NCBI GenBank assembly: GCA_948146395.1
Contig: OX411555.1
Location: forward strand, 43,447,225 to 43,511,224
Reading direction: 5' to 3'
DNA length: 64,000 nucleotides
Origin: Fragum whitleyi
Lineage: Eukaryota > Mollusca > Bivalvia > Cardiida > Cardiidae
Notes under the pieces: model-generated
The model's database searches: none
Seen by the model: only the letters and a program-made list of their open reading frames with translations
What the model was told of the DNA's origin: nothing
In this document: positions 20,438 through 37,270 of the stretch, in pieces
Layout: each line of letters starts with the position of its first letter
Numbering within the stretch: the first letter of the stretch is position 1
Made by a program: the position numbers and the translations under genes

Positions 20438-20889
20438 TATTGATCCCAAGACTGCTTTACTTTCTCACTCCAACGTTCTAGCCATGTATATGTGAATCCG
20501 CACAAAATGTTCTTTTTTATACTTTGCCATAGTCGATAGGCTTCTACTGATTCTTGTTCGTTTAGTTTTAATTCTTCAAGTTGTGGATACCATGCCTGCA
20601 TTATTTTGTATGGATTTACTTTAAGCATTGCTTGCTCAATGAACAAGTCTGTATGTTCTTCTCTACTCATGAATAAGCAAACAGGATGTTCTATCTGACT
20701 CGGATGATCTATTTGACACCCGTTACAATTGTTATGAACTTCTTCATTGATAAGTTCTTGCAGTTGATCCACCATACACTTTTGAAAACTGTTGTGAATG
20801 TCATTTTTACGAACTGATTCAATGTTTGACGAATATTTCACTTTCTCTGCTTCTTCTCTAAGTTTTATGGCGTACTGGTATCCAAGCAT
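20437..20889 (-). CDS. Unknown Polinton protein between capsid and protease
   Basis: 150 residues, not recognised. N-terminal half helical and charged; a cluster NNCNGCQIDHPSQIEHPVC (near residues 54-71) resembles a zinc-binding site; the C-terminal half is helical and Trp/Leu-rich. It starts 5 nt after the capsid stop and shares one base with the protease start, so it is probably co-expressed with both and may be a virion or assembly protein (inference from position only). Confidence 0.75.
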   Translation of the reverse strand: MLGYQYAIKLREEAEKVKYSSNIESVRKNDIHNSFQKCMVDQLQELINEEVHNNCNGCQIDHPSQIEHPVCLFMSREEHTDLFIEQAMLKVNPYKIMQAWYPQLEELKLNEQESVEAYRLWQSIKKNILCGFTYTWLERWSEKVKQSWDQ

Positions 20890-20894
20890 GATTT

Positions 20895-22205: not shown

Positions 22206-22229
22206 CTTTTTGGACTTTTTACAAAAATG

Positions 22230-22610
22230 TTAATCAAATATGTCTAATGGTCTGGCTGACCTTTTGTTAGTTCGATGTTTCTTTGACGTGATCTTACCAC
22301 GACGAGATCGAGAATGAGAATGATGTGCTTTGCTTGATTTCTTTTCATTTATACTCGATAACAACTTGTTAGTCAAATGTTTCAAGGATTGTTTTCCCCG
22401 TGACATGAGAACTTTCTTTGGCTTTTTACGATGTACTAAAATGTCTTGTGCTAGTCCTAATCCTTGTTTAATACCTTCATCTTTTATTGCATGCAGTCCT
22501 GATTTCAGCATAGGTTTTATTAGTGGTGTTACTGATCTTAATGCAGATTTAAACAAAGACCCTAAGCCAAAACCATATTGATGTTGAACACCTCTATAAA
22601 CAGGCACCAT
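22230..22610 (-). CDS. Basic minor virion-like protein
   Basis: 126 residues. The N-terminal part has a glycine-bounded amphipathic stretch (YGFGLGSLFKSALRSVTPLI, then KPMLKSGLHAIKDEGIKQGL). The C-terminal 70 residues are rich in Lys, Arg, Ser and His. Small proteins of this shape next to capsid genes in Polintons and adenoviruses act as membrane-active or DNA-binding internal capsid proteins; no specific homology can be proven by eye. It lies between penton and capsid genes with gaps of 10 and 24 nt. Confidence 0.75.
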   Translation of the reverse strand: MVPVYRGVQHQYGFGLGSLFKSALRSVTPLIKPMLKSGLHAIKDEGIKQGLGLAQDILVHRKKPKKVLMSRGKQSLKHLTNKLLSSINEKKSSKAHHSHSRSRRGKITSKKHRTNKRSARPLDIFD

Positions 22611-22619
22611 GTTTTTTTT

Positions 22620-22625
22620 TTTATT
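22620..22625 (-). terminator. Possible poly(A) signal at the penton stop
   Basis: Minus strand AATAAA overlapping the TAA stop of the penton-like gene, followed by a run of A. It could end penton transcripts early; use is unproven. Confidence 0.35.
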
Positions 22626-23532
22626 TTTGATTTTCTTTGCGCTTACGAAAATGCAACTTTACTATTGTCTTGCCAATGACAAACTGAATAGGATGACCAG
22701 AATCACCTGTTATATTAATGTGAATGGAATCAAAATCTGATTTTGAAACTGGGAAATAATGTGGAGCAATAATTTCATGATTGATATGTTGACTTTCATT
22801 ATCATTTTCAATGGAATTAGATGTTTTAAATGGTACAACTCGAAGTATTGGAACTAATGTATCACCAACAATGGAATATTCAACAATGTCTGAATATACA
22901 AATAAATGATTATATCCTGCATCAATGTTTGGTGAATATTTAAACATTTCAAAAACACATCGACCTTTGTAAATTGTTTTTCCATCAAACAAAGGATCAC
23001 CACCAAGTTTTTGAAATAAAGATTTATTGAATTTAATTCCTGTTTTGTTAATATTTTTGAATTCAAACTTTGTACGTTTTGATGATTCAGAATATCCAAC
23101 GTGAATAGTTGCACTACTATCATGAAGCACTTTTCCAATTTCATCATCAATGCATTCATTGACTACATCTAACACATGAGATGGCGAGATGTAAGACCCA
23201 GGTGTGAAACGAAATTTGATTACCCATTTTACATCATGTCCTGTTGAATTGAATTTAAGGGCAGTGATTTCTAATGGATTAGGTTTTCTCTTATTTTCAT
23301 CAAATATCTTTTTGTAGATACCAGTATCTGCCGTGATGATATCAAACCTGGCTTCTTCTTCACTTATATTTAGGAATTGACTTGGTGTTATCAATTGTGC
23401 AAGTCCAACTTCCCAATCTTCCTTATCAATTTGAACAGTTTTAGGTAATTTAACTTTAAAACAACATTGTGTGTTTGTAGGAAAATAGTTCAAAGAACTA
23501 TCACTAGGCAAAGTTATGTAGAAGGAATTCAT
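22621..23532 (-). CDS. Polinton penton-like minor capsid protein
   Basis: 303 residues, intact. It begins MNSFYITLPSDSSLNYFPTN and contains DWEVGLAQLITPSQF and LFVYSDIVEYSIVGDTLVP. This pattern (a strand-rich domain with a conserved YSDIVE..IVGD..VP segment) is characteristic of the Polinton protein assigned as the single-jelly-roll penton. It would occupy capsid vertices. The ATG overlaps the stop of the upstream membrane-protein gene by 4 nt (ATGA), implying coupled expression. Confidence 0.85.
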   Translation of the reverse strand: MNSFYITLPSDSSLNYFPTNTQCCFKVKLPKTVQIDKEDWEVGLAQLITPSQFLNISEEEARFDIITADTGIYKKIFDENKRKPNPLEITALKFNSTGHDVKWVIKFRFTPGSYISPSHVLDVVNECIDDEIGKVLHDSSATIHVGYSESSKRTKFEFKNINKTGIKFNKSLFQKLGGDPLFDGKTIYKGRCVFEMFKYSPNIDAGYNHLFVYSDIVEYSIVGDTLVPILRVVPFKTSNSIENDNESQHINHEIIAPHYFPVSKSDFDSIHINITGDSGHPIQFVIGKTIVKLHFRKRKENQK

Positions 23533-23816
23533 TTTTTGCCATCAATGAAATCAAATGCTGAATGTTTATTCTGTTTTGTGAATTTTAATCCGGGTGATGG
23601 TAAAATGAAGCCTAAAGAACTACTGAGAAGAATTAACCACAATTCACGATTATCACTTTGAATACTAAGATGTACTATAGATGTAGCAATAATGGCATAA
23701 ATGACTATTATTTGTGATACATAAGTGAACTGATTTTTAGGGACACGATTTCCAAAACATGTGAAAGGAGTTGACTGACTGACACTGTCACCTCCAGATT
23801 CCAACTGAGATTGCAT
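23529..23816 (-). CDS. Small two-helix membrane protein
   Basis: 95 residues. Two hydrophobic segments, about residues 32-52 (VSQIIVIYAIIATSIVHLSI) and 59-76 (LWLILLSSSLGFILPSPG), are joined by a short polar turn. The N-terminus is Ser/Gln-rich and the C-terminus basic. No signal peptide. It overlaps the penton start. Small membrane proteins at this place recur in Polintons; an entry, exit or inner-membrane role is conceivable but unsupported. Confidence 0.7.
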   Translation of the reverse strand: MQSQLESGGDSVSQSTPFTCFGNRVPKNQFTYVSQIIVIYAIIATSIVHLSIQSDNRELWLILLSSSLGFILPSPGLKFTKQNKHSAFDFIDGKK

Positions 23817-23850
23817 GATAATTACTTATGTTTTTATAAGTTTTTTCAAA

Positions 23851-24969
23851 TCACGTTAAGTATGATTCTGGTATCCAACTCTGAAATTTTTTAGGATAAC
23901 CTTTCCAACTGACTTTAATTTCTTTGATTATTTTTTTACCTTCACGTCTTGTTCGCTTATCAAGAACTGAATCTATATCATAAACTTCATCATCTTTTAT
24001 AAGTTGCAATTCTTGTTCATAAAATGACCCAAGGATAGGTTCATTTGCTAAATCTTTAATTTTATATGTGATTGGAGATGTTTTTGAATTTACATGAGTG
24101 ATTTCAAATAATTCTTGTGTCCAATTTGGAAGATATCCTTTCTCAAATGTATGTTTTGTTTTATTGATACGAACACGATCACCTTTCTTAAATTTTGGTT
24201 TCTTTTTTATCTTCTTAATCACTTTTGTTTCACTTTTTGCATATAAGTTCTCTGAAATTTTTGCTTCATTAGAATGATTAACATCTGATGGATTTGCTTT
24301 TATGCTCCTGTGAAAAGTATTGTTATAATTATTCACAAAGTTTTGAAGAACATCAATGTATCTTCGTGTTTTTTCATGAGTGAAATATTTCCACATTCTA
24401 GTTTTCAACGTACGTTGAAATCTTTCCACAATACTTGCTTTAGTCTCTGGATTATCTGTAGTGAAATAATGGATCTTTTTCTTTTTCAAAAACGTTTGAA
24501 AGTCTTTGTTTTTGAACTCACTTCCTTTATCTGTTTGTAATGATAGAGGTTTTCGTGATTTAAGGATGGACTGAAATGCAATTATCAATGTTTTTCCCAT
24601 CTTATTCTTGATAGGTACTACCCATGCAAATTTTGAAAAGACATCAATAACACAAAGTAAATATCTAAACCCATTATTTTGATTTGAAAATTGTTGCATG
24701 TCTGCTAAATCAGCTTGCCATTGGTGATCGATTCCTGCAACAATTGTTTTACGTCTTTGAAATTTTCTTCGAATAGGTTTATGTAAGGTGTATGTTGATT
24801 CCCCTTGTAACCATTTTTTAACATCTTGATATGATATGGTTTTCAAAGTGGACTTCGCTGCTTTGTATAATTCTTTTATGCTTGAATATGCAACTTTATT
24901 TTTGTTTAATCCATAATATAATTTTCTTAGCAGTGCTTCTTTGGACTTACGCTTCAGTATGCCTCCCAT
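23851..24969 (-). CDS. Polinton integrase with C-terminal chromodomain
   Basis: 372 residues, intact. Retroviral-type (rve) integrase: catalytic D87 (QADLADM), D147 (LQTDKGSEF) and E182 (IVERFQRTL), with 34 residues between the last two, the DD35E form. An N-terminal helical region precedes the core; an HHCC zinc finger is not evident. A basic SH3-like segment follows (FKKGDRVRI, near 258-285). Residues about 328-372 form a chromodomain (YDIDSVLD...IKVSWKGYPKKFQSWIPES). It inserts the linear element and makes the 6-bp duplication seen at the ends. The chromodomain could bias integration to marked chromatin. The start overlaps the upstream gene by 23 nt. Confidence 0.95.
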   Translation of the reverse strand: MGGILKRKSKEALLRKLYYGLNKNKVAYSSIKELYKAAKSTLKTISYQDVKKWLQGESTYTLHKPIRRKFQRRKTIVAGIDHQWQADLADMQQFSNQNNGFRYLLCVIDVFSKFAWVVPIKNKMGKTLIIAFQSILKSRKPLSLQTDKGSEFKNKDFQTFLKKKKIHYFTTDNPETKASIVERFQRTLKTRMWKYFTHEKTRRYIDVLQNFVNNYNNTFHRSIKANPSDVNHSNEAKISENLYAKSETKVIKKIKKKPKFKKGDRVRINKTKHTFEKGYLPNWTQELFEITHVNSKTSPITYKIKDLANEPILGSFYEQELQLIKDDEVYDIDSVLDKRTRREGKKIIKEIKVSWKGYPKKFQSWIPESYLT

Positions 24970-25807
24970 GACTGAAGACTTTTAGAAATTGACTCTTTTT
25001 TATAGGACTTAAAAGTTGTTGAGTGTAAAGATCTTTTCTTTTTTCTTTTTCATGAGTCGTGGCATATGGTGAGATTTTTCTTAGGTGGCTTAAGGTTCTC
25101 TTCTTTATGGTTTTCATTTTGGTTGGAGATCTTACTAAACTTCTGGCGGGGGTTTTAAAGGGTGTACTAGAACTTATTTCTGATTCACTAGATTCACTTT
25201 CAGGCAGATATTTTTGCATCCATTGCCATCTTGACATGTTTCCGACTACTTCTTGTGGAACATTGCTTTCATGTAAAGCTTTAGAGAATACTTCCCAACC
25301 TCTAGGTTCAATTCTTTTTCTCTTACGTAATGAATCATTTATGAGATCAATGAAATTTGAACCTGGGATAGGTTTTCCTTTATATGTTACCATACCTTGA
25401 TTATCCCATGATATGTTATCATTATCTCTAAGAATATTTAACAGAAGCTTAGCTTTTCTCTGCATGGTTTTAGGTACACTTTCTAAGATACGATCATGTA
25501 ATGAAACATTTATTGATTCTGTTCTTGAATCCGCTTCTTGATTTTTTGAAGATTGGGGTAACGTTGGATTTTTCACTCTTTCAAATGAATTTTGTAGTTT
25601 GAACAATGTTTCTCCATACGTTTGTGCTTTGTCTGTTTCAGAAATATCAGTTCTTTCTAATGTATTTTTCATATCCTTATAAAGGTGGGAAACATTGGTT
25701 ACTTGTGGATTTTGTGGTAGAATAGGTTTATGACTTTGTTCATCTCTCCATTGCTTCAAATCATTCAGTACTTGGACAGGAACAATGACCATTTTTCTTA
25801 CTGACAT
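24947..25807 (-). CDS. Unknown conserved-looking Polinton protein upstream of integrase
   Basis: 286 residues. The middle (about 100-200) is a compact helical domain with the phrases KAKLLLNILRD, ISWDNQG, KPIPGSNFIDLINDSLRKRK and NVPQEVVGNMSRWQWMQKYLP; similar phrases are familiar from animal Polintons, but I know of no assigned function. The C-terminal 80 residues are Ser/Pro- and Lys-rich with several S/T-P sites (TPFKTPAR, RSPTK, SPIKK). It overlaps the integrase start by 23 nt. Candidate roles are DNA-bound core or scaffold protein. Open and apparently intact. Confidence 0.75.
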   Translation of the reverse strand: MSVRKMVIVPVQVLNDLKQWRDEQSHKPILPQNPQVTNVSHLYKDMKNTLERTDISETDKAQTYGETLFKLQNSFERVKNPTLPQSSKNQEADSRTESINVSLHDRILESVPKTMQRKAKLLLNILRDNDNISWDNQGMVTYKGKPIPGSNFIDLINDSLRKRKRIEPRGWEVFSKALHESNVPQEVVGNMSRWQWMQKYLPESESSESEISSSTPFKTPARSLVRSPTKMKTIKKRTLSHLRKISPYATTHEKEKRKDLYTQQLLSPIKKSQFLKVFSHGRHTEA

Positions 25808-25821
25808 TTTTTATCTTATGA

Positions 25822-26145
25822 TTATAAAGCTTTAATTGCACCACCAATCCCTCCTATGACAGCTTTACATAATAATGGTATTAATGCAGACCCTAACAAT
25901 GGGAGAAATCCACCCTTCTGATTCAAAATGCGTTTCTTCTTTTTTACAGACACTGATTTTGAAGCAAGATTTCGAAGATGTTGACGGTTTGAATACAACT
26001 TCTTCTTCTGAGCATCTGTTAGGTGTACATTGCCTTTTAAAACATTGTGACAACATTCTGATATACATCTTATCACTGGAGATGATAATTCTTTTACTAA
26101 TTTTTTTCTTAGCTTCGGTGAAGATTTCATTAATGCCATAACCAT
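25822..26145 (-). CDS. Small basic GGFL-type virion-like protein
   Basis: 107 residues. Helical basic N-terminus, a Cys pair (ISECCHNVL), then KKKKRILNQKGGFLPLLG and a hydrophobic, glycine-rich tail (SALIPLLCKAVIGGIGGAIKA). The basic-QKGGFL-hydrophobic layout is common in Polinton and adenovirus-like minor virion proteins proposed to bind DNA or disrupt membranes. The N-terminal half aligns with the N-terminus of the next gene (26253-27185), so the two are probably old paralogues. Confidence 0.75.
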   Translation of the reverse strand: MVMALMKSSPKLRKKLVKELSSPVIRCISECCHNVLKGNVHLTDAQKKKLYSNRQHLRNLASKSVSVKKKKRILNQKGGFLPLLGSALIPLLCKAVIGGIGGAIKAL

Positions 26146-26248
26146 ATGACCATGTTTCCTAATTAAAGGAACTTTTCTTATTTTTTCACCATGTTACCAC
26201 TTCTTCAGATAAATCATAAATGATAAAGAGCGTGTAATATCAAAAGTA

Positions 26249-26254
26249 TTTATT
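26249..26254 (-). terminator. Poly(A) signal after the SPKK-protein gene
   Basis: Minus strand AATAAA overlapping the stop codon region of the gene at 26253-27185. It would give a very short 3' UTR. Confidence 0.4.
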
Positions 26255-27185
26255 AGGTAGAAATTTTTTCTCGTAATGCTGTAAGAGCTATTCTACCTGG
26301 AGAAGATATAGTTCTCATATCCAAAGTTGTTAAGGGTGAAAAGGGTGCAATTCTATATTTTCTGTTTCTAAGTTTCTGCTGACTTGATTTTGGTATACGT
26401 TGTGGTGTAATGAAATCACTGTCATAACTTGAATCAGAGGTTGAACTTGAGATTGGGGTTGAAAAACGGGCAGATAAATTCGGAGACATAGAACTTGATA
26501 AGAATGAAGGTGGAGATATATGCATCGGTGTTTGTGGTGAATGAATTGATGAAATGGGGGAAACATTTGGTGTAACATTTGTTGATGACATTTTAGAAAA
26601 AGGTCTATGTGATCTTCTCATTGTAATGAATCTTTCATCAATCGAGAATTTGTTTTTTGATTTCTTTGGAGAATTTTTCTTAGGAGATTTTCTTTTCCCA
26701 ACTTTTTTCTTTGGAGATTTTCTTTTCACAGATTTTTTCTTAGGAGATTTTCTTTTTACAACTTTTTTCTTTGGAGATTTTCTTTTAACAGAATTTTTCT
26801 TCTTAGGAGATTTTCTTTTATCAGATTTTTTATCATTTCTTTCTCCATCCCATCTAAGGAGACTTCTAATTATTACACCACCAAGAAAACCACCACCACC
26901 TGGTTTAAATATGATTTTACGTTTTACTTGTTCATTAATGTTTGGATCTGCAAGCTTAGCTACATCATCTCTATGTTTATTCATATATGTAACAGTTTGC
27001 TTTGGTAGCTTGATTCTATTTTCAATGATATTTTGTGCTGCCAAAGAAAACCATTTCAATATTTCCTTTAAACCAGCATTCAATAACGCTTCTCTTTCAT
27101 ACTTGTTTGTCTGTCGACTTAAGTTCTGTAAAAATGAATCACTGATGTAGATGTTCTTGGTAAGGCCATGTTCACTCAATGACAT
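26253..27185 (-). CDS. SPKK-repeat basic protein (probable core/DNA-packing protein)
   Basis: 310 residues. Residues 1-115 share the helical layout and the KRKIIF..GGGGFLGG motif of the neighbouring 107-residue protein. Residues about 117-178 consist of five or six near-identical 10-residue repeats of type KRKSPKKKxV. SPKK units bind the minor groove of AT-rich DNA and occur in sperm histone and H1 tails. The remaining half is Ser/Pro/Thr-rich, with multiple S/T-P sites. A chromatin-like core protein that packs the genome in the capsid is the best inference. TATA-like TATAAAT lies 40 bp upstream (27225-27231). Confidence 0.8.
   Translation of the reverse strand: MSLSEHGLTKNIYISDSFLQNLSRQTNKYEREALLNAGLKEILKWFSLAAQNIIENRIKLPKQTVTYMNKHRDDVAKLADPNINEQVKRKIIFKPGGGGFLGGVIIRSLLRWDGERNDKKSDKRKSPKKKNSVKRKSPKKKVVKRKSPKKKSVKRKSPKKKVGKRKSPKKNSPKKSKNKFSIDERFITMRRSHRPFSKMSSTNVTPNVSPISSIHSPQTPMHISPPSFLSSSMSPNLSARFSTPISSSTSDSSYDSDFITPQRIPKSSQQKLRNRKYRIAPFSPLTTLDMRTISSPGRIALTALREKIST
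26650..26840. repeat. In-gene 30-bp tandem repeats (SPKK units)
   Basis: On the + strand the unit reads about GGAGATTTTCTTTT...TTTTTTCTT, repeated five to six times with little divergence. It codes the Lys/Ser/Pro decapeptides. Low divergence suggests recent expansion or homogenisation. Confidence 0.85.
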
Positions 27186-27224
27186 AGATCAAAAGACTGG
27201 ACTTGAATGATCACAAGTTCACCC

Positions 27225-27231
27225 ATTTATA
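27225..27231 (-). promoter_or_regulatory. TATA box for the SPKK-protein gene
   Basis: Minus strand TATAAAT about 40 bp upstream of the ATG at 27185, overlapping the end of the ATPase gene. Confidence 0.5.
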
Positions 27232-27892
27232 CAGGTGAATAAATAATTGGACCTTGATCTTCATTCTTTGTATACCATCTATGAAATATATCAGTTCTTA
27301 ATCTCAATACTTTTTGAGTTCGAGAATGAAAATCAATGACCAAATAACCATGAGGCAAGGATGTTGCATCATTGTACGCAGGAATCAAGTGTGGGGCTTG
27401 CATTTGATTTGCTAGAGTCTTTATTTGGTTATTATCACGTTCATTGCGAAAAAGTATCATGTTTCTTAAATTCAATCTAATGGTTCTACTTGATTTTGAC
27501 TGTGAAAACATGTTTTGTGTTATATAGATGACACTTGCATTACGATGATGACCTTTTCTAGTAAACCATAATTTAATTTTCTCTTCATCTTTTTCACCTA
27601 ACATATCATCAAATATTACCAAATGTGGTATAGATGTATCACTTACAATTTCATTTTCATCTTCAGGTATTCCGTCAATGAAAGTAATGAAATCAATTTT
27701 TTCTTTCATGATACTGTATGCATTTTGCCATTCTTTATAACACCAAGTAATTCATTTTGGTGCAATGTCAAATAAGTCTTCACGATAATCAATCAGTTTG
27801 TGAACGAATTCTGTTTTACCACATCCACTTGGACCAGAAATGAAAATATTACAAGGATGGTTAAACAAGAGGGAGAGAATATCTACATCCAT
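27227..27892 (-). pseudogene. Polinton packaging ATPase, interrupted by one stop codon
   Basis: About 220 codons from an ATG at 27892. The Walker A motif GPSGCGKT lies near the start, the Walker B HLVIFDDM in the second half, followed by the sensor-like SVIYITQN; this is the FtsK/HerA (A32-like) genome-packaging family. A TGA at 27752-27754 interrupts the frame between Walker A and Walker B; the rest of the frame is open in the same register, so a single substitution accounts for the break. Family length is normal otherwise. The enzyme would pump DNA into the procapsid; this copy should be inactive unless the stop is read through. A TATA box lies at 27947-27953. Confidence 0.88.
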
Positions 27893-27946
27893 TTCTTTCG
27901 TCCTTACCATTCAATGGATAGAAATAAAATGACAAAGATATATTCA

Positions 27947-27953
27947 TTTTATA
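27947..27953 (-). promoter_or_regulatory. TATA box for the ATPase gene
   Basis: Minus strand TATAAAA 55 bp upstream of the ATPase ATG. Confidence 0.5.
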
Positions 27954-28184
27954 ACTTTTATTCTTTAACATTTTTGAAACATCATAAAACATTCTTTTAC
28001 AACATTTTTTACAATAACATATTTACAATTTCATTTTTTATTTTTAAAAAACATCTTTTTAAAATATTTTTAAAAGATATTTTGAAAAAATATTTTTTCA
28101 AAAATATTTTCAAAAAAGTTTTCTGAAAATTCACAACTTTCATTTTTTAAAAACAAAATCATCAACAAGTTTTTAAACAGTTCT
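27954..28184. other. AT-rich, self-complementary spacer
   Basis: Very A/T-rich, with repeated AAAATATTTT-type blocks around 28030-28120 (TTTTTAAAATATTTTTAAAAG, GAAAAAATATTTTTTC). It separates the ATPase promoter from the next gene. It contains an AATAAA on the minus strand near 27957. No gene. Confidence 0.6.
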
Positions 28185-28712
28185 TTAGTTATGATTAAAT
28201 CCACCTTTAAGTCCACTTATCCATGTCCAATAATGATTCAATATTGATTCGGATACTATAATACTTGTCTTTCCTACTTCACGATTTCCTAATTCAAATG
28301 GAAAGAAGAATGCATTACTATCCGGTTTGTAATTCACTTCATTGACAGGAAGCACTATACAGGATGAAACTGTGGAGGACACTAGTTCTTTGCTAACATC
28401 CCTGTCAAATATGATGAATCCCTCTATTGCTTCAACTTCTTCAACAGTAGTTGGAGTAGTTCGATAATTCACATGATCAATCCATGTCTTTTTATACATC
28501 ATGTAAAAGTTAAATTGCTTAGCTTTTCTTTTGAGTTTCTCAACGAAATCACTACATGTTCTCCCATTCAGCATTGGTGTTTTTAATGTCCACTGATATG
28601 TATCTCTATCCCTCCAAAAGTAGAAGTTATTAAGTAAGACACTTGTCAACACTTTTATTTCACTATCGTCGAACTGTGTATCGTTTATCATCTCCTGTAT
28701 ATATTCTCTCAT
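28185..28712 (-). CDS. Unknown Polinton protein
   Basis: About 175 residues from the ATG at 28712 (a TTG three codons upstream is an unlikely start). Mixed charged helices first, then a hydrophobic beta-rich part (EGFIIFDRDV, SSCIVLPVNEV, NAFFFPFELG) and the C-terminus WISGLKGGFNHN. No motif recognised. It lies between the ATPase and a tiny gene upstream, with an AT-rich spacer downstream. Open frame with no obvious break. Confidence 0.6.
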   Translation of the reverse strand: MREYIQEMINDTQFDDSEIKVLTSVLLNNFYFWRDRDTYQWTLKTPMLNGRTCSDFVEKLKRKAKQFNFYMMYKKTWIDHVNYRTTPTTVEEVEAIEGFIIFDRDVSKELVSSTVSSCIVLPVNEVNYKPDSNAFFFPFELGNREVGKTSIIVSESILNHYWTWISGLKGGFNHN

Positions 28713-28748
28713 TTTAAACAATTCTATTGCAGGCTGTCCTCTCGTGAT

Positions 28749-28949
28749 TCATTTTTTTATCTTTCGAATCCACATTGATATACAAACAACTTTCATTCTT
28801 TCTTGCATATCTTTATCCATTGTATGATATCCGATGAATATCTTGTAGATCTTTTCACGTAACTCAATTGGCAGTGGAAGTTGATAAGGCAACATTTTGA
28901 AATTTACTGTAGATAAATAGTAAATAATAGATGCCAGAAATGTTATCAT
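28749..28949 (-). CDS. Unknown 66-residue protein
   Basis: Starts with a hydrophobic segment (ITFLASIIYYLSTV) and continues LPYQLPLPIELREKIYKIF, which faintly resembles an F-box-like LP-x-E-L-x-x-x-I pattern, then a helical basic tail. Too short for a secure call. It may be a real small gene between polymerase and the 175-residue gene, or a remnant. Confidence 0.4.
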   Translation of the reverse strand: MITFLASIIYYLSTVNFKMLPYQLPLPIELREKIYKIFIGYHTMDKDMQERMKVVCISMWIRKIKK

Positions 28950-29084
28950 CTTACAATTCTTTAATCATGTGTTAAGTACAATACCAAATGAACTAAAACA
29001 AACATTGTTTTCTAAGAGACAAAATCAATATCTTAATGTACAGTGTTCAGCTTGTTCACAAGAAATGATATCCCTCTAAAAGTT

Positions 29085-29090
29085 TTTATT
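29085..29090 (-). terminator. Poly(A) signal after DNA polymerase
   Basis: Minus strand AATAAA 5 nt past the polymerase stop codon. Confidence 0.5.
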
Positions 29091-29094
29091 GTTT

Positions 29095-32000
29095 TTATAC
29101 CCTAATACTTTCATGTCCAAATGGGACAGTATCTATATCATTGACCATTACTCTCTTTGTATATACTGATCTAAATGTTTTTGTTTGTGCTTCACTAGTG
29201 ACTTTTCTATCTCTATGTCTCCTGATTCTGCAGTCATAGGTTATCTTAATTTCAGTACTTCGATCCTGCATACATTTTGTGAATGCATCAAAATTGACCA
29301 ACTTGCAAGTTTTGTAGTCTAAGGTTATACCCTTGACTTTACTTTTACTTTCAATATCACCATCTTTGGTAACCAATTGATATGCATAGTTTTTTGGACC
29401 CAACCCTCTGAACTTAACAATTTTTGAGTTGGGTTCTTCATCGGTCCATTTCCCCAATCTACTATTGATAATAGGTGGATTCCATAACTGTGGGTCATGA
29501 ATGTACATGCAACTATCAGTGTCAATGTACAACACTCTATCATTCAGTTTTTAGTTTATAATTCAAGTCTAGCATAGGCCGTAACATATGATCCGACAAT
29601 GACATTGGCTGTTCCATGGGTCTCAACATGATCCAGCTTTGATTCATAGTTGACCAGAATGAATGGACATTCTTCATTGAATATTTCTACATGTTTAATA
29701 ATGTAGTTAGGGTTGTTGACAAGTTCAAAGTATTTTGATGGTTTTGATATATATTCTGATTGGGTCAATACCTCTCTTTGGGCAAGTTTTCCCCATAGCA
29801 AATTTAACATTATCTTTGCAAATGCCCTTCTTCCTTTGTTCTTTTTAATCATTGTAGGATACAGACTGATTCCTTCATCTGATTCATATTCCCGAATAAA
29901 TGTATCTTTGTCAGCTTGGGTTTTACACCATTCAGGATAACCACTGGCTTCTTGTTTGATTTTCAAAAAGTTGTCAACATACCCCCTAAAGAAATTATTG
30001 GAGAGAGATTCAAAGTGCCAAACTTCAAAGACATGAAGTAATCTGTAGCCACAGTCCAAAGCCTTGAACAATTCAACTGTGACCCATGTTCCTATCAACG
30101 CTCTCTCGTTTTCATTGTGAGAGCAAGTCTGTGAACTTTCTTCCGCACATGTTCTACATAGTGGAAACATCATTTTGTTATTACAATGTACGGGTAAAAT
30201 AGGGTGAAGCAAATCATCAGGTGGCAACACCTTACATTTGACATGACCTTCATACTGCCTAATGTTTTGGATGTCAATGCTTTCGCTTGTCAGGACTTTT
30301 GGGTGTCCAACAGGGTAGGATTTATACTTGCATACATAAGAATACAAAGAGCAAATGTCAATGTACTTAATTTCTTTTTCACTTGATTCGTCTATCTCAT
30401 GAGCAATCTTGACTGCATTACAACGCCCGCCATACAGTCCGTCCCTTGGATCTATTGGGTCAGAGTATGGGAATAAACCATTGATTACTTCACGATAATC
30501 TTTGTCTTTTTTTACTCTTGCATCGAACTCATGTTCCCAAATGTATTCAACTTTATAGCCTAACCTATTTAGATATTGTAGACGGGCCATTGTACCGTTA
30601 TACAAAGTTTGCATTGTAAAACCATTGATTGGGTTGGTTTGTAAACGGTTTGGGTAGCAGACTGGACAACCGTGCCATAGATCACCAAGAAATTCGTACA
30701 CTGTGTTGGTTTCTGCATGAAATCCATCAACAGATAAAGACTTGATCTCAAATTCCCCCAAATTCCGGGCATGCTGGATAAAGATGCCATTTTCATTTGC
30801 AATACTTTGGAGCCAACGAATGGCTTTCATAGAGAAACGACGCCTGGAGGAATCCTTACTTGAAATAATTGCAATTTGACCTTTAGGCAAATATCTACTT
30901 CTCCAGACCTTGTTACATGCATCAGCTATTGTTATAGCTTCCAGTAATGGATCAATACCTCCGTACTCAATAAACACTTTCCTGAAATGACCACACCCCC
31001 TTCTGAGGATATCAACATCTGAACGACAATATGACTCCATTTCTTTTTGAAAATTGAAAGTTTCTTTGTTTGTAACCTTTTCATTATACCATTTCATGAA
31101 CTCTTTTCTTAATTCTGGGGACATAGAGTCACACATGTAATAGGAGGTATCAAGATATGGACCATCATAGTCCCAAAACTGATCAGTGTTGGCAAGATGA
31201 GGAAAGAACCCCTTTTTCATTTCTTCCAGACCAAACGTATCAGGGAATTTACCAAGACGAAAGTTCATGAAGTTATAGGAGTCGATCAAACGAACTCCAT
31301 TCAACTCCAATTTCATGATATTGTTACCATTCATGATAAGAGATGGGGGTTGATTCCCAATTCTTATTATTTCATTCAAGATAAATTGGGCATCGTATCC
31401 TTTTGCATTGTGAGCTATAGCAGTCATACCCTTATGCTGCTTGGAGAAAAGCCAATTACAAAAATCAGTCAGAGTGCTATCACCTTGAAATATAACCTCC
31501 CTTCCTTCGGCAAACTCACTGCATGTTGAACAGTGATAATCAAGTGACTTATCTATGCATTCATCACAAGCTCTCTGTGCAATGCAATAATTTGGAATAT
31601 GTAGACCAGTATCTTGTTTGCATTCAAAATCATAGAAAATAAACAATGGTTTATTCTTTATATCACCTACATCATCATCATCCACATCATCATCACTTTG
31701 ACCATCCTTGCAAGACTTTTTTTTCTTTTTTAAATTCTCTATCACCATTGTCGCCTTTCTGTATCTTACTTTCGTAAGGCTGAATATGACAACGATGATC
31801 AGAATTAGTAACCTTTTTGCAGTAACGACACCTTTTCATACCTTTGCAAACATGATTATTTGTTCTAACATTGTATTGTTGCTTGCATTTACTGCAAAGT
31901 TTTACCAGATTACATATGGATTTCTTCTTTTTACCTTCAATTCTTCTATGATTATCAAAACATTCTTGTCCAAAAAACTTTCTTTTGCAACCATGACAGT

Positions 32001-33198
32001 AAAATTCTATGTTGTAAATATCACAACGTTGGGATGTGAAACAAGCTGAACAAATGTACTCACAGTAATGCTACTCTCTATGATCATATCCAACATCACA
32101 AAATTCACAATAATAGCAACAGGATAGAAACCCTGTCATACTTGTGATAAAGTCATAATGTCCTTGATGGTAATACAAATGTATCACTTTGCTATCCTGG
32201 TACACTACTGGATGTTGAAATGTCATTTCCACTTTAGAATGTTGTTGATGGACTTTGATCACATATTTCTGTTCGTACAAATAGGTCTGGACCAGCTTGT
32301 ACTCATCAACTCCACATGGTTTGTTAGGAGAAATTCCTACTTCCATCAGTAAACGTTCAGCTTCATCCTTTTGCATCGTCTTGTTTGATTGTCTAATAAG
32401 GTGCCATTTTCTTTTCCATTCATCACTATCATCTCGGTTAACATAATGTTTTCCAACGACAACTGCCCTTGCAAAACACATACTGTCTTCTGCATTTTTA
32501 ATTTCAACGATTGATTTTTTCTTCTTTGCAAAAACTTTCGTATCAAGTTCAGTTACCTATCGCTTACTCCCACCTAAGGGTAATCGTGTGTGTGTAATAT
32601 CTAATTTCATCTCACCATCATCTACCTTAAATTCAGTATTTGACTGCATGACTTTTTCAATTTCACTTAAGAATATTTCACCATTTAAATCACGCACATC
32701 CATGAAAGGTATATGTATCCCCATATCTAAAGCGGGGTGGCTGATGGTAACTCTGATTTTGTCATCTGGTTCAGTATCAAGTGTCTCGCTGAGTTGGGTT
32801 GTAATATCATCAAACAAGGTTTCAAGTTGTTGAGGTGAAATTTTATCAAATTCTTTAAATGTCACTGACACAACATGTGAGTCAGTTCTAAATAACCTGG
32901 ACTTCTTATTCATTACTTTGGACAGCTTGTACTTTTCTCTCATAGATCCGGACGTTTTTTCTTCTTCTACTTCATCATCCGATTCAATAGGTTTCACCTT
33001 TTTCTTTTTTGGTATCCAAAATTCATCATCAGATGAATCAGTATCATCTTGCATCGAAACATCTTTTTCCGATTCACTTCCTTTGTTTGACTCATTAGAC
33101 TCTGAGTCACTGTAGTCCAAAAGTTTAATTCTTTTCCACTTACGTTTATGAAGTGGAATCCATTCATCATTATCATCTTCCCTTTTTCGTTTTGACAT
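29095..33198 (-). pseudogene. Polinton protein-primed DNA polymerase B, broken
   Basis: About 4.1 kb, equivalent to some 1360 codons. The N-terminal part (33198-32557) has a basic/acidic head and a GIHIPFM...QSNTEF segment typical of Polinton polymerases. A Cys/His-rich region with many C-x2-C pairs follows (32100-31760). The catalytic part holds exonuclease motifs DFEC, AHNAKGYD and YCRSD (residues 40, 114-119 and 240-244 of the 31748-29556 frame), a VYEFLGDLWHGCP segment (349-361), palm motif A DICSLY, motif B KIMLNLLWGK, and motif C YIDTDS at 29529-29512. Lesions: TAG at 32557-32559, TAG at 32071-32073 (minus strand), a frameshift near the A-rich run at about 31715-31770, and a frameshift at about 29540-29558 just before motif C. 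It cannot make a full enzyme. Confidence 0.93.
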
Positions 33199-33356
33199 GA
33201 TTTCTCTTTCGGGTGTTCACAAAGAACTAATATCGAAATGAAACAAACCACAGCTTTTATAGGGTATTCATGACTCACCAGTTCGTAACTGTATAAATAC
33301 CACGTAGCTTTCGTGGTATTTCATCATTCACTCACAAATCTTTGTAGAGAGAAGAC
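33199..33356. promoter_or_regulatory. Divergent promoter between polymerase and zinc-knuckle genes
   Basis: Two TATA boxes face opposite ways: TATAAAA on the minus strand at 33255-33261 (57 bp before the polymerase ATG) and TATAAATA on the plus strand at 33292-33299 (58 bp before the zinc-knuckle ATG). A short palindrome, ATACCACG...CGTGGTAT, sits at about 33297-33321. Confidence 0.65.
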
Positions 33357-34279
33357 ATGTCTGAATTGGCTAAGAACATGAATTGTTATGACATTGTGTC
33401 AGAAGTTGTGAAAAAGATAAAGAACAGAAAACGTATGAAGGTGTACGTTAACCCATACACCCATGAATACGAAATAACCAACATACCAGCAGACTACCAA
33501 ATTCAGCATATTGGACCATACGTTGGTATGTTCATGTCTTATCAGTTCAGCAATGATGAATATCGGATTACAAAACAGAATGTATTTGATACACTTACCA
33601 TAGATGAGATATATGCTCCGGGGATGAAACGACCTGAATTTTGTTTCATCTGTCACGAGAAGGGTCACTTTGCGAAAGATTGTCCTGAGAAGACGAGAAA
33701 GGAGTCTTACTATGCTTTCGTCTTACTTTGCTTTATGTGAATCCAATAACCCACGATGTCATGATCTCAAGAAGAAACGATCGAACACCAGATTTGGACA
33801 ATATGGAATACGTTCGCGCATTCCTATCACACTGTAATGAACACAACAGATACTGTTTAAGGGTTGATAGAAAAAACACAGTGCAAAAGTTCGGGCCAAC
33901 AAATACACTAAAAAACAAATGTTCAGTGGAAACTCAAACTACTCATGTTCAACAGGACATTAATAACCATGAAGTAAATGATACTCAGAAAAATGACGGT
34001 CAGACTATAGACAATGTGAAAAACGAAACAGAGAGTCAGACTTAGAAAATCTGTTCTCAGGAAAAAGTGACAAGTGAAGAGACATCAAACCTAAAAGATA
34101 TCAAAACGGACACTGTCATCATGGACGAGGAGAATCAAAACTGTTTCTTCTGTAAGACCAGCGATCACCCGGAGAAAGACATTTGTCCTACACTAGTGAT
34201 TGACGAAACAAAGAAATCAAGAAAGAGAAAGACAAAAACTGAATCTGGCATCCCAAAGAAGAAAAGGAAACAAAACTAA
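33357..34279 (+). pseudogene. CCHC zinc-knuckle protein with two repeated modules, broken
   Basis: Three open pieces in order: 33357-33740, then a shifted frame to 34045, then the same frame from 34067 to 34279 after a TAG at 34043-34045. The first piece has a YVNPYTHEYEI segment and a zinc knuckle CFICHEKGHFAKDC (C-x2-C-x4-H-x4-C). The second piece repeats the YVNP-x-TH segment right at the frame change. The third has a second knuckle, CFFCKTSDHPEKDIC, and a basic KKKRK tail. So the ancestral gene probably held two copies of a YVNP + knuckle module. CCHC knuckles bind single-stranded nucleic acid, as in retroviral nucleocapsids. One frameshift (about 33670-33740) and one nonsense codon break this copy. 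AATAAA follows at 34413. Confidence 0.65.
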
Positions 34280-34412
34280 ATACTTAAACAAATAGACATT
34301 TTAAAGACATTGTTAAGTAGAGACATTTAAATGTACATAGACATTTTTGTTCTTGTAATGATTAAATAATGATTGTTTGTCATATGTTCATGTTTCATTT
34401 ATTTTGTATTTG

Positions 34413-34418
34413 AATAAA
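34413..34418 (+). terminator. Poly(A) signal after the zinc-knuckle gene
   Basis: AATAAA in an A/T-rich stretch 134 nt after the last stop. A conventional signal, unlike the stem-loop that ends the converging gene at 34547-34915. Confidence 0.55.
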
Positions 34419-34483
34419 ATTTTTAAAAACATTGTCTCTTTTTTATTTTTCACCATCCATCCCGATTTGCAGAAAAGTTAAAA

Positions 34484-34492
34484 ACTTTCAAG
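34484..34492 (-). promoter_or_regulatory. Histone downstream element-like box, diverged
   Basis: Minus strand CTTGAAAGT, sharing the GAAAG core with CAAGAAAGA at the same distance (10 nt) past a histone-type stem-loop. Six of nine positions match. Confidence 0.4.
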
Positions 34493-34502
34493 ACAATTGG
34501 AT

Positions 34503-34518
34503 GGTCCTTAAAAGGACC
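34503..34518 (-). terminator. Histone-type 3' stem-loop after the YPxL-repeat gene
   Basis: Minus strand GGTCCT-TTTA-AGGACC: perfect 6-bp stem, loop UUUA, preceded by TCAAAA and followed by ATCCA. It starts 29 nt after the stop codon of the gene at 34547-34915 and lies far inside the element, so it is not explained by the terminal repeats. Confidence 0.75.
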
Positions 34519-34546
34519 TTTTGATTTCTCCAAGTTCAACATCATT

Positions 34547-34915
34547 TCAATGAAAAGAAGTTAAACTTGGATATAATTGTACCATCCCCCTTTTCCATTC
34601 ACTACATTCAGTTGGTGGCATGAACTCTGAAAGATCAGGGTACATATCCCTATCTTTCACATGAAAGGAAGGCATGCCTGGGTACAACTCCATCATTCTT
34701 TCTTTCCATCCGGAATGTTCAGTTGGTGGTTTGAAGGTTGAAAGATCAGGATATAAATTTCCCGTCTTCACTAACTTCTTCTTCGTATAGAAATTATATC
34801 CACGCCGCAACATAAATTCATACAAAGCCTGGTTTCTTTGCTTCAGTTCATCATCGACTTTCTCTTTCTTCATTTTCTTAAAGATGCGTCGAAAGAAATC
34901 AAATACAGAATTCAT
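34547..34915 (-). CDS. Small protein with tandem YPxL motifs
   Basis: 122 residues. The N-terminus is a basic amphipathic helix (FDFFRRIFKKMKK). The C-terminal 70 residues are two copies of a roughly 34-residue repeat of pattern YPDLS-x-F-x-PPTE-x-S-x-W...LYP-x-x-x-SFH. Together they give four YP motifs: YPDL, YPGM, YPDL and YPSL. Three match the YPxL core recognised by the ESCRT adaptor ALIX, a late-domain motif used by many viruses to leave cells. Whether it works that way here is inference. Open and intact. It ends with a histone-type stem-loop; a TATTTAAA sequence at 34949-34956 could be its TATA box. Confidence 0.7.
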   Translation of the reverse strand: MNSVFDFFRRIFKKMKKEKVDDELKQRNQALYEFMLRRGYNFYTKKKLVKTGNLYPDLSTFKPPTEHSGWKERMMELYPGMPSFHVKDRDMYPDLSEFMPPTECSEWKRGMVQLYPSLTSFH

Positions 34916-35045
34916 CTTACAAGATGAAAAAATGTATGGAAAACTGCATTTAAATACCGTTTGAGATTACCTACTAACCTACTGACCCACTGACCTATAT
35001 AGATAAAACGAACATAATAACCTTCAAATGACTTTGAGAGAATTC

Positions 35046-35089
35046 AAGTGCTTCCTCCCGGGTACGCGCTCTATTTAGGGTATAAAAAG
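35046..35089 (+). promoter_or_regulatory. Promoter of the 78-residue gene: shared box plus TATA
   Basis: Box at 35046-35068 begins AAGTGCTTCC and ends GGTACGCG, matching 17 of 23 positions of the box at 36077-36099. TATAAAAAG follows at 35081-35089, 41 bp before the ATG at 35130. Confidence 0.65.
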
Positions 35090-35129
35090 ACGTCAGTTCC
35101 ATAAGAAATTCATTCTCTGGAACTCAAAC

Positions 35130-35366
35130 ATGGACTCTGAAAACATACGATCATTTGCCGTGATCTACATCAGGCACCCACCACCCTCGCAGGTTTTGCT
35201 TCTTGAGCAAATCCGGTATACCGCTAGGAAGGGGCCATGTGCTTGGACGCCGAAGATGACAGATGACTGGGTGTGGAATGAATTTATGGCACCCATTGGA
35301 CAGCCAAGGAGAGAGAGAGTTCACCCAAACATTCCTGATATTTACAGGGAAGAATACTGGGATTAG
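35130..35366 (+). CDS. Unknown 78-residue Polinton protein
   Basis: Not recognised. Contains PPPSQVLLLEQIRY, a GPCAWTPKMTDDWVWNEF segment rich in Trp, and an acidic/aromatic C-terminus (YREEYWD). No membrane segment. It has its own clear promoter (shared box and TATA box) and a histone-like stem-loop starting 24 nt after the stop, so it is very probably expressed despite its size. It is divergent from the YPxL gene. Confidence 0.65.
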   Translation: MDSENIRSFAVIYIRHPPPSQVLLLEQIRYTARKGPCAWTPKMTDDWVWNEFMAPIGQPRRERVHPNIPDIYREEYWD

Positions 35367-35389
35367 AATCTCTTTCCTCTAGAATAAAC

Positions 35390-35405
35390 GACCCTTTTCA
35401 AGGCC
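35390..35405 (+). terminator. Degenerate histone-type stem-loop after the 78-residue gene
   Basis: GACCCT-TTTC-AAGGCC: four of six stem pairs form, loop UUUC, followed by AACCA. Exactly 10 nt later comes CAAGAATGC (35416-35424), like the CAAGAAAGA element. Position and spacing match the other three stem-loops, so it is likely the same signal with two mutated stem positions. Confidence 0.5.
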
Positions 35406-36028
35406 AACCATATTGCAAGAATGCATCCATTTCTCAAATTGTCACATTTAAAATACACCGAACATAACCCGTATAAAGTATTCAGAATGTAGTTACAAGA
35501 TTTCATAGACCCAATATCGCATTTTCAAATAAATTCAACAATACGCTAAGTCAAGTAAAACAATGCTTCACTTGCGAGTTTAATCCACCCATCTACATTA
35601 AATATCGATTTTTATCTGACATGTACACCGATACCCGTTTCATATCGGAGTTTTACATTTTAAAGCGATAGCGAACCGGTTTTAAATCAGCGTGTTTCAA
35701 AAAGTCGCGTTAAGAGTGAATAATGATAAGATTTCAACTCTTTTCAGTCGAAAATGATAAAAATGACAAGTAATACATCTCAGCTAACATTACCAGTCAT
35801 CAAAATAAAATCAGTTTCAAGTAGAAAACAAAGGAAAAGACATTGGATCTACAGCAGAAATTCACCGTCAATTTCAAAAGTTTTTGCGAATTTATTCCTC
35901 ACGTTCAATAACTGTGCGAAGAACTTGATAAAAGAAATGATAAAAGAATAGGTTGACAAAACGTTTGAGATAGAAAATATTTACATTTTCTTCATCATGA
36001 AGAAGAAATTTGAGAAAAATCATCACTG
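35406..36028. other. Spacer within the Polinton right arm
   Basis: About 600 bp without a convincing gene. A 65-codon frame at 35754-35951 encodes a basic peptide (KSVSSRKQRKRHW...) but lacks a promoter or 3' signal, so I do not call it. Confidence 0.5.
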
Positions 36029-36099
36029 AGAAAACACAAATTCCCATCTCGACGTCCATTTTACTTGTCAAAGTAAAGGTGCTTTCGCCAAGGTCCGCG
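36029..36099 (+). promoter_or_regulatory. Subterminal inverted repeat with promoter box, right
   Basis: Inverse match to 19686-19758. Contains GAGAAAACACAAATT, ATCTCG, TCAAAGTA and the conserved box at 36077-36099 (AGGTGCTT...CAAGGTCCGCG). It lies 24 bp upstream of TATAAAA at 36123-36129. Confidence 0.75.
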
Positions 36100-36122
36100 C
36101 GCCCTACACTGTAGGCTAACAG

Positions 36123-36129
36123 TATAAAA
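36123..36129 (+). promoter_or_regulatory. TATA box for the right terminal gene
   Basis: TATAAAA 45 bp upstream of the ATG at 36174, below the conserved promoter box. Confidence 0.7.
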
Positions 36130-36173
36130 CTTCATCAGTCGTTCGTCAACCTCCGAAGCGAACACACGCAAAA

Positions 36174-36815
36174 ATGAATTCAGATTTCAATTTACAAGAA
36201 ATCATGTCTCAGGCAAATATCACACACGATGATTTGCTAGCATCAGCCATGGATTCAACATTTGGATCGAAGAGTTGTCAGATACTTGGACCTCAGGAGA
36301 ATTTATCATCAATCCAACAGAATTTCCAATCAGTGAGTACAAATGATGTTGTTCTTCAAAACATCCTCGCTGAATTGAAAACCATGAATTCGCGACAAGA
36401 AGCTATCATGATAAAAATCATTGCGGAGCTGAATACCTTCAACAAATCGTTTTTGGATTTCAAGACACTGACGGAGAGGATACAAATTCTTAACCAAAAT
36501 GTTCAAAAATTGTGTCAACAATCATCATCTCCAGTCACATTCAGACCAACACCGCTGAAGATTCCAGTTGAATTTGACTTTGAACAAACGAACTTTCACA
36601 AACTCGTAGACAGTATTATGACTGTGATGAAAAAGAAACAATCGTCACACACTTCATCGACCAAAAGATCATCATCTTCATCAGAAAGTGTTCGTCCAAG
36701 TAAAAGACATTGTTCAGAAAAAGAGAGGGGATACAAAATTCCTACAATGACAGGGATAGGTGCCTACGGCAAGAACATCGATAACTTCAAGAAACCAAAG
36801 ACCAAAAAGAAGTGA
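36174..36815 (+). CDS. Coiled-coil protein, outward-facing at right end
   Basis: 213 residues, not recognised. Residues about 58-115 form a long heptad-rich helix (LQNILAELKTMN...LTERIQILNQNVQKL), a likely coiled coil. A short conserved-looking domain follows (FDFEQTNFHKLVDSIM), then a Ser/Lys/Arg-rich tail (TKRSSSSSESVRPSKRH) that could be a nuclear localisation signal, and a basic end. TATA box, conserved promoter box and a histone-type stem-loop 36 nt after the stop make it a well-delimited gene. Open and intact. Confidence 0.75.
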   Translation: MNSDFNLQEIMSQANITHDDLLASAMDSTFGSKSCQILGPQENLSSIQQNFQSVSTNDVVLQNILAELKTMNSRQEAIMIKIIAELNTFNKSFLDFKTLTERIQILNQNVQKLCQQSSSPVTFRPTPLKIPVEFDFEQTNFHKLVDSIMTVMKKKQSSHTSSTKRSSSSSESVRPSKRHCSEKERGYKIPTMTGIGAYGKNIDNFKKPKTKKK

Positions 36816-36850
36816 TGAAATGAATAGTAGAACTATCAATCAACAAAAAC

Positions 36851-36866
36851 GGTCCTTTTCAGGACC
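36851..36866 (+). terminator. Histone-type 3' stem-loop after the right terminal gene
   Basis: GGTCCTTTTCAGGACC, an exact fit to the animal histone mRNA consensus GGYYCTTTTCAGRRCC, preceded by CAACAAAAAC and followed by ACCCA, also as in histone messages. It starts 36 nt after the stop of the gene at 36174-36815. Confidence 0.85.
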
Positions 36867-36875
36867 ACCCAACAC

Positions 36876-36884
36876 CAAGAAAGA
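36876..36884 (+). promoter_or_regulatory. Histone downstream element-like box, right
   Basis: CAAGAAAGA, identical to the classical purine-rich element of histone pre-mRNA, beginning 10 nt beyond the stem-loop. Confidence 0.75.
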
Positions 36885-37217
36885 ATTCATTTTCTTTCGC
36901 AAATTGTCAAAGTCCTTTTGCATTCCTCACTTTCACAATACATTCAACCACTTATTTCAAAGACAAAATCCCTATGACAAGTCCCTATCTTTCCGTCTTT
37001 GGACGGTAAGATAAGGACTAAGTCCACATGCACATTACTCACAAACCAACCCGCATTTCTCCTAAAAAAGACTAAGTCCACACGCATATTCCCCACAAAC
37101 CTAAGTTCACATGTTTTGTACAAAAGACTAAGTCCACACTCATATTCCCCACAAGCCTAAGTTCGCATTTCTGTGAAAAGATTAAGTCCAAATGCACAAA
37201 TAGCCTACCAAAAATCT

Positions 37218-37255
37218 GGACGTGAGTTTGGCACCAGGGTGCCAAACTCACGTCC
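37218..37255. repeat. Subterminal palindrome, right
   Basis: Perfect 18-bp arms (GGACGTGAGTTTGGCACC and its inverse) around a 2-bp centre, 9 bp inside the terminus. Confidence 0.92.
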
Positions 37256-37264
37256 ATTACTACT

Positions 37265-37270
37265 AACATT
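37265..37270. repeat. Target-site duplication, right (AACATT)
   Basis: Second copy of the 6-bp host sequence at 18837-18842. Confidence 0.92.

Follow-up and report, generated by a model that had tools for sequence, protein, structure and literature searches.

A bivalve Polinton carries near its ends four small accessory genes that are built like the replication-dependent histone genes of the host, and they are likely to be working genes of the histone type. Their anatomy, the spacing of their parts and the match to host sequences follow the histone pattern, the arrangement recurs in copies of the element and in a distant family, and stem pairs were found changed on both sides. The histone motifs in promoters and 3' ends of the Polinton suggest an expression of the accessory genes that is timed to DNA replication. 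To our knowledge, histone-type 3' ends are held to be a nearly private mark of histone mRNAs. A full-text search, with subscription papers mostly outside its range, yielded no paper joining Polintons and SLBP, and histone-type 3' ends or promoters of Polintons or Mavericks did not come up among the papers listed. The papers retrieved by full-text search for the histone stem-loop or SLBP together with transposons were unrelated, as judged from their titles and the beginnings of their abstracts.

The Polinton covers 18,422 bp (18843-37264) of the window, the whole 64-kb stretch of DNA that was analysed. Its extent follows from the ends AGTAGTAATG...CATTACTACT, which are bordered by the 6-bp target site duplication AACATT at 18837-18842 on the left and 37265-37270 on the right; termini and duplication were read directly. 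The terminal inverted repeats (TIRs) have arms of about 434-436 nt that are 97 % alike (left 18843-19276, right 36831-37264), and each arm holds a stem-loop. Near each element end, within the TIRs, lies a 40-nt palindrome (37217-37256 and 18851-18890). On the minus strand, DNA polymerase B (29556-31748; Pfam PF03175, E=1.5e-40) and an rve integrase (23851-24969; PF00665, E=3.8e-13) scored above the Pfam cut-offs. The integrase chromodomain (PF00385) reached 24.6 bits, slightly under the cut-off of 25.1, and an adenovirus-type protease (19970-20437, minus strand) with AATAAA 78 nt past its stop reached 21.2 bits for PF00770 against a cut-off of 21.3. Pieces of a P-loop ATPase were recognised by eye. 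We infer a major capsid protein from the 436-aa product of 20895-22205 (minus strand); neither this putative capsid protein nor a 303-aa protein had a match in Pfam or PHROG. The putative capsid protein has 815 relatives, 120 of them listed, and among the matches listed those with an organism name belonged to Mercenaria, Saccostrea, Crassostrea, Ostrea and one bacterial MAG, names that point to a bivalve as host.

Behind the terminal gene at 36174-36815, the stem-loop GGTCCTTTTCAGGACC is located at 36851-36866 on the plus strand with 35 nt between stop and stem-loop, which confirms the sequence-only reading that had called a histone-mRNA-type 3' end at this place. The flanks are as described there, CAACAAAAAC before and ACCCA after the hairpin, as is the purine element CAAGAAAGA, which occupies 36876-36884 and starts at the 10th nt past the stem. 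With the Rfam model RF00032 (Histone3), three window sites exceeded the gathering score of 34 with 37.5, 36.4 and 34.6 bits, the spans of the two further sites being 19215-19261 and 34479-34523, both on the minus strand; a fourth window site at 35390-35405 (plus strand) was below this cut-off. The stem-loops passing the model consist of a 6-bp stem with a GG/CC base and a pyrimidine-rich 4-nt loop. In RNA folding, three window stem-loops formed the 6-bp stem, and the decayed site at 35390-35405 did not. A search with the consensus, allowing up to two mismatches, found five sites in the window, where shuffled sequence would give 0.23. Four of these are inside the Polinton, in sense orientation and separated from a stop codon by 23-35 nt, and the fifth is outside the element. 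Counted to the first nucleotide of the stem-loop, the distances past the stop are 36, 30, 29 and 24 nt for genes of 213, 115, 122 and 78 aa, respectively, all in sense. Among 19 other Polinton ORFs examined, none had a stem-loop within 250 nt past the stop. The sequence-only reading had noticed one of these four genes, the 213-aa gene, and its placement at the right end was too narrow, as each TIR contains a stem-loop and two internal genes have one as well. Reading outward, the 115-aa and the 213-aa gene lead into the TIRs, and their stem-loops are accordingly TIR copies of one another; the flanks of the stem-loops at the 122-aa and 78-aa genes are unlike the TIR flanks.

The right terminal gene codes on the plus strand for a 213-aa protein without homologue among 57 candidates. 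It is preceded by a histone-promoter motif, here called motif A, at 36079-36102 (plus; 5 of 24 positions mismatched to the host H2B promoter motif) and by a TATA box at 36123-36129 (plus), 51 nt before the ATG. Its stem-loop is the one with 37.5 bits, the purine box CAAGAAAGA on the plus strand corresponds to the histone downstream element and is by analogy a putative U7 target, and a TTGTC box follows at 36904-36908 (plus), at +38 after the stem-loop as in host H2A and H2B. The left terminal gene (19286-19633, minus) encodes 115 aa ending in RRHCPICNARFGCSHY. It has motif A at 19681-19704 (minus) with 7/24 mismatches, the stem-loop GGTCCTTTTTAGGACC at 19241-19256 (minus; RF00032, 36.4 bits), the purine box CAAGAAAGA at 19223-19231 (minus) and a TTGTC box at 19199-19203. 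The 122-aa gene at 34547-34915 (minus), with two internal repeats recognised by eye, ends in the stem-loop GGTCCTTTTAAGGACC at 34503-34518 (minus; 34.6 bits), which is outside the TIR and differently flanked. Its purine-rich box CTTGAAAG at 34485-34492 (minus) is looser than the TIR box, and TTGTC is found at +7, not at the usual place. The promoter common to the 122-aa and 78-aa genes contains the H4-promoter motif B AGGTCAGTGGGTCAGTAGGTTA at 34975-34996 (minus), with one mismatch in 22 positions to the host H4 promoter. The 78-aa gene (35130-35366, plus) has its own motif A at 35048-35071 (plus; 6/24 mismatches). The stem-loop behind it at 35390-35405 (plus) is decayed in this copy (GACCCTTTTCAAGGCC, 4 of 6 pairs) and intact in sister copies; it is accompanied by the purine-rich box CAAGAA, again looser than the TIR box, and by TTGTC at 35439-35443, +34 after the stem-loop. 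A TATA-like box precedes the ATG by 41-51 nt in all four stem-loop genes.

Polyadenylation signals are distributed unevenly over these genes. Neither AATAAA nor ATTAAA was present within 250 nt of the 213-aa and 115-aa terminal genes. AATAAA was found 100 nt past the stop of the 122-aa gene and, ahead of the stem-loop, 17 nt past the stop of the 78-aa gene. The 19 other ORFs had a TATA-like box within 150 nt in 11 cases and AATAAA or ATTAAA within 250 nt in nine. The TATA-like box and the missing poly(A) signal were therefore rejected as marks of stem-loop genes, being shared by 11/19 and 10/19 other ORFs. The AATAAA signals behind the two internal genes would fit mixed 3' ends, with a stem-loop that stabilises or regulates mRNAs mostly polyadenylated downstream. 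This is quite unlikely: the terminal genes are devoid of both signals, although 10 of the 19 other ORFs are so too, and the purine and TTGTC boxes of the TIR genes are those of host H2A and H2B.

Host histone genes offered a direct standard for the 3' ends. Tandem clusters contain H4, H2B and H2A genes (named by eye) with the stem-loops GGCCCTTCTAAGGGCC, GGCCCTTCTCAGGGCC and GGCCCTTTTAAGGGCC, 30-37 nt past the stop. Four genes agree in the positions of two boxes behind the stem, with AGAAA at +12 and TTGTC at +38: host H2A, host H2B and the two TIR genes of the Polinton. Host H4 has TTGTC at +35, no AGAAA and no purine box. As background, 2.2 % of random window stretches have a TTGTC in the range 25-42. 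A TTGTC about 34-38 nt past the stem-loop is common to host H2A, H2B and H4 (loci L016, L022) and to three of the four Polinton stem-loop genes; we know of no described function for this box. The Polinton 3' end matches those of host H2A and H2B in its stem and loop, in the flanks, in the purine box and in the spacing of these parts, so the histone-type reading is supported at the level of sequence. Histone mRNAs of the bivalve Lucina pectinata are described with stem-loops and in some cases with purine-rich elements nearby (PMC6210712). The U7 model of Rfam (RF00066) had no match in the host genome and none in the control genomes either, hence it is uninformative here.

Gap-free comparison of the 60 nt past the stem gave a graded result. 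The TIR flank shared 30 positions with H2B (reached by 0.0004 of shuffles), 25 with H2A (0.015) and 16 with H4 (0.70). For the flank of the 122-aa gene the identities were 25 to H2B (0.008), 20 to H4 (0.22) and 16 to H2A (0.55), and for the 78-aa gene 24 to H4 (0.08), 20 to H2B (0.27) and 23 to H2A (0.08). Three of the nine comparisons stand out, TIR with H2B, TIR with H2A and 122-aa flank with H2B, and six do not.

The promoters share motifs with those of host H2B, H4 and H1, the last likewise named by eye. A pattern of GTGCTT, 4-14 nt and SCGC matched three times in the window, at the 213-aa, 115-aa and 78-aa genes; it was written after viewing these promoters and matches there by construction, which does not apply to its absence elsewhere in the window. 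In the host it also matches promoters of histone genes, those of H2B and H1 in L016 and that of H1 in L022. At five loci of other stem-loop genes it matched once (L061), away from the gene start. The host versions of motif A read GTGCTTCCGTGGAGGTCCGCGCTC at H2B and GTGCTTCCGTCCGGGTCCGCGCTC at H1. Three of 15 histone loci fetched were scanned with up to 8 of 24 mismatches to the H2B motif; all three have motif A at H1 and two have it at H2B, and it was absent at H2A and H4 of these three loci. At the same limit, the window matched at three stem-loop genes and at site 44913, an Rfam tRNA, and five Markov controls gave 0, 0, 0, 0 and 2 matches. Motif B agrees in 21 of 22 positions with a host H4 promoter sequence that is present in two of the three histone loci scanned. 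With up to six mismatches it had three matches in the window, two of them overlapping in the promoter of the 122-aa and 78-aa genes, against 0, 0, 0, 1 and 1 in the controls. The Markov controls serve as a guide only, since the limits on mismatches were set when the motifs were already known.

Genome-wide counts were made in the host assembly (1.22 Gb, 38 contigs). The exact stem-loop GGTCCTTTTNAGGACC occurred 496 times, the reversed pattern not once; the GGCCC form, which includes histone genes, gave 461 against 0. For the putative capsid protein, 96 matches were scored in the genome from 322 candidates, with identities of at least 95 % and without internal stop in 88 of the 96. The first 100 stem-loops listed cover C1 and the part of C2 up to 95.7 Mb; 23 of the 96 capsid copies lie in this range, and the stem-loop positions were compared with them. 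In 22 of these 23 copies the left stem-loop is located 1263-1649 nt past the capsid stop, and in 18 of the 23 three exact stem-loops are present in the expected orientations. Among the first 100 stem-loops listed, 36 were not near a listed capsid copy. On C1, the GGCCC form of the fourth stem-loop accompanies 11 of the 14 capsid copies, with offsets between -9.4 and -20.6 kb. A hairpin of 16 nt is short and could in principle arise by coincidence; against the excess over shuffles in the window, the counts of 496 to 0 and 461 to 0 and the left stem-loop in 22 of 23 capsid copies, the probability of a chance resemblance is negligible.

Comparison of the copies showed how far the signal is maintained. 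All six stem pairs, G-U counted, were kept in 29/30 TIR, 20/22 78-aa, 11/11 122-aa and 4/4 132-aa stem-loops, in counts for which many loci were chosen for having a stem-loop and from which L068 and L071, both overlapping L067, and the separate copy L056 were left out. The 23 capsid copies were chosen independently of the stem-loop and are free of that selection bias, as are the partner stem-loops on the same copies. For the fourth stem-loop, sister copies present two intact forms, GGCCC/GGGCC and GGTCC/GGACC, a two-sided change at one pair; in the copy L003 one pair is broken. Much of the stem variation of the TIR stem-loop concerns one pair, seen as T-A and T-G. The 6 nt preceding the stem-loop never vary among recent copies. 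The mean deviation per column was 0.042 in the TIR stem-loop and 0.040 downstream (30 sequences, recent copies), and 0.034 versus 0.006 for the 78-aa gene (11 sequences, recent copies). The stem-loop of the 122-aa gene was invariant, 0 against 0.011 downstream (11 sequences), and is the sole one less variable than its surroundings. An older copy, L055, is 80 % identical over 802 aligned positions; it shows no difference in a 24-nt stretch at the stem-loop and a 23-nt stretch at the purine box, and reads TTATC where others have TTGTC. This copy, an interrupted older version of the 213-aa gene, is the one locus read from a stretch at C2:7336172-7380803, where five stem-loops follow one another at intervals of about 10.3 kb and two others are nearby. 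The sequence-only reading had named a loss of stem pairing or purine box in related Polintons as the outcome that would speak against it; within this genome, pairing and box have persisted. The stem-loop is kept in sister copies, in the 80 %-identical older copy and in the distant Polinton-like family, with changes on both sides at one stem pair. Beyond the host, four contigs with a capsid relative (MAGs, taken as animal contamination) contained neither a strict hairpin nor an RF00032 match at E values up to 1, a result that is not decisive, as these contigs have no recognisable TIRs either. Viral contigs contained no related locus by capsid protein, capsid alignment or two stem-loop patterns.

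The copies also bear on the origin of the signal. The identity of the TIR 3' flank to host H2B (30/60, gap-free) makes a capture of histone-gene flanks plausible, and TIR and 78-aa stem-loops are no less variable than the neighbouring sequence among recent copies, as expected if the TIR merely transports the stem-loop as a passive remnant. A remnant is nevertheless unlikely in view of its presence at four genes, two with flanks unlike the TIR, always 23-35 nt past the stop and in sense, of the two-sided stem changes, of the distant Polinton-like family and of the promoter motifs at the same genes. The hairpin might alternatively act as DNA, in protein-primed replication or transposase recognition, as two of the four stem-loops are in the TIR, which also has the 40-nt palindrome near each element end. 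We regard a function as DNA as very improbable: the other two stem-loops are outside the TIR behind internal genes, and the match extends to the letters of the loop, the A-rich and ACC flanks, the purine box and the host spacing, none of which would be required of a DNA hairpin.

The distant family was reached via other stem-loop matches. Its 132-aa gene, with the stem-loop 41 nt past the stop, is in L068 the outermost gene seen (9151-9549), beside an integrase and a capsid-like protein, on account of which L068 is termed Polinton-like. The capsid-like protein is 28 % identical to that of the window over 441 positions, a part of the integrase 38 % over 248 positions. The integrase is split over two frames, with rve below the cut-off in each piece and the chromodomain above; an ATPase-like protein had Pfam matches below the cut-off. 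No PolB-like ORF was noticed, no TIR was found in the pieces fetched, and the adjoining 10 kb had no ORF of at least 90 aa starting from ATG, so the L068 element may be incomplete. At the 132-aa stem-loop, L072 reads GGTCC/GGACC and three other copies GGCCC/GGGCC, a two-sided stem change. The 132-aa gene of L068 has eight relatives, 41-43 % identical, in other sequenced contigs.

Several non-histone genes dispersed over this genome carry the stem-loop signal. Twenty further stem-loop loci picked from the listings comprised the 78-aa gene (11), the 213-aa gene (1), the 132-aa gene (2), KptA-like genes (4) and a repeat without clear ORF (2). Genes or gene pieces similar to KptA/Tpt1, an RNA 2'-phosphotransferase, end in histone-type stem-loops at L012, L015, L069, L079, L087, L088 and L089; two L012 pieces match PF01885 slightly under the cut-off, and the remaining loci were assigned by likeness. 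A family of small genes for 112-195 aa, not recognisably in a Polinton, also has histone-type stem-loops and purine-rich boxes (L059 9467-9805, L060 6645-6983, L061 217-597 and 5875-6462). Three genes of this family were scanned without a Pfam match. Two small stem-loop proteins of L061 were compared by BLASTP with two accessory proteins of the Polinton, and the two pairs revealed no relation. Among five dispersed repeats without clear ORF (L062, L063, L064, L090, L091), three show two stem-loops about 100 nt apart; one of the two in L090 is imperfect, and L064 and L091 have one each in the stretch fetched. In L002, near 1501, a single stem-loop GGCCCTTTTAAGGGCC without a TTGTC box is located behind a short ORF.

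In the histone pathway, the stem-loop is the binding site of SLBP and the purine box the pairing site of the U7 snRNP; the mRNA that results from cleavage is poly(A)-minus and regulated with the S phase. By analogy to this pathway, the messages of the stem-loop genes are most likely non-polyadenylated S-phase mRNAs of the histone type. The gene plan starts with a histone promoter motif and a TATA-like box, followed by a short leader and one uninterrupted ORF. It closes with a 6-bp stem and 4-nt loop and a purine-rich box, to which three of the four genes add a TTGTC box. SLBP is expected in the host, since its histone genes carry the stem-loop, and would bind the stem-loops of the Polinton. 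The U7 snRNP would pair with the purine box of the transcripts, and cleavage past the stem would leave mRNAs without poly(A) that are made and kept in the S phase, so that their proteins would appear at host DNA replication. Expression at this time may benefit the element. Since the stem-loop is absent from the 19 other ORFs examined, the Polinton would possess two expression classes. Taken as a whole, it seems rather probable that the Polintons of this bivalve took over the histone expression programme, promoter and 3' end, for accessory genes, with SLBP-type poly(A)-minus S-phase messages as the outcome. With the distant Polinton-like family and other dispersed multicopy genes bearing such a 3' end too, histone-type ends would be common property among the mobile elements of the host. 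If true, the case of a virus-like element that copies promoter motifs and a 3' end would show how a DNA parasite can lock its expression to host DNA replication and escape poly(A)-dependent controls. The timing of Polinton activity becomes directly testable, and the 496 exact stem-loops of one form are natural copies for reading the sequence rules of bivalve histone 3' ends, including the TTGTC box.

Polintons or Mavericks generally consist of PolB, rve integrase, adenain-like protease, ATPase, TIRs and a 6-bp target site duplication. Compared with these adintovirus-like elements, the element in the window likewise has PolB, rve integrase, TIRs and the 6-bp duplication, together with an adenain-like protease slightly under the cut-off and P-loop ATPase pieces recognised by eye. 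With replication-dependent histone genes, represented by RF00032 and host H2A, H2B and H4, the Polinton genes share the stem, the loop, the A-rich and ACC flanks, the purine box, the TTGTC box, the short distance between stop and stem-loop and the promoter motifs. The third stem pair is often T-A in the Polinton, whereas the stem-loops read at H2A, H2B and H4 of the host have C-G there. In contrast to histone genes, the stem-loop genes described here encode no histones and reside in a mobile virus-like element.
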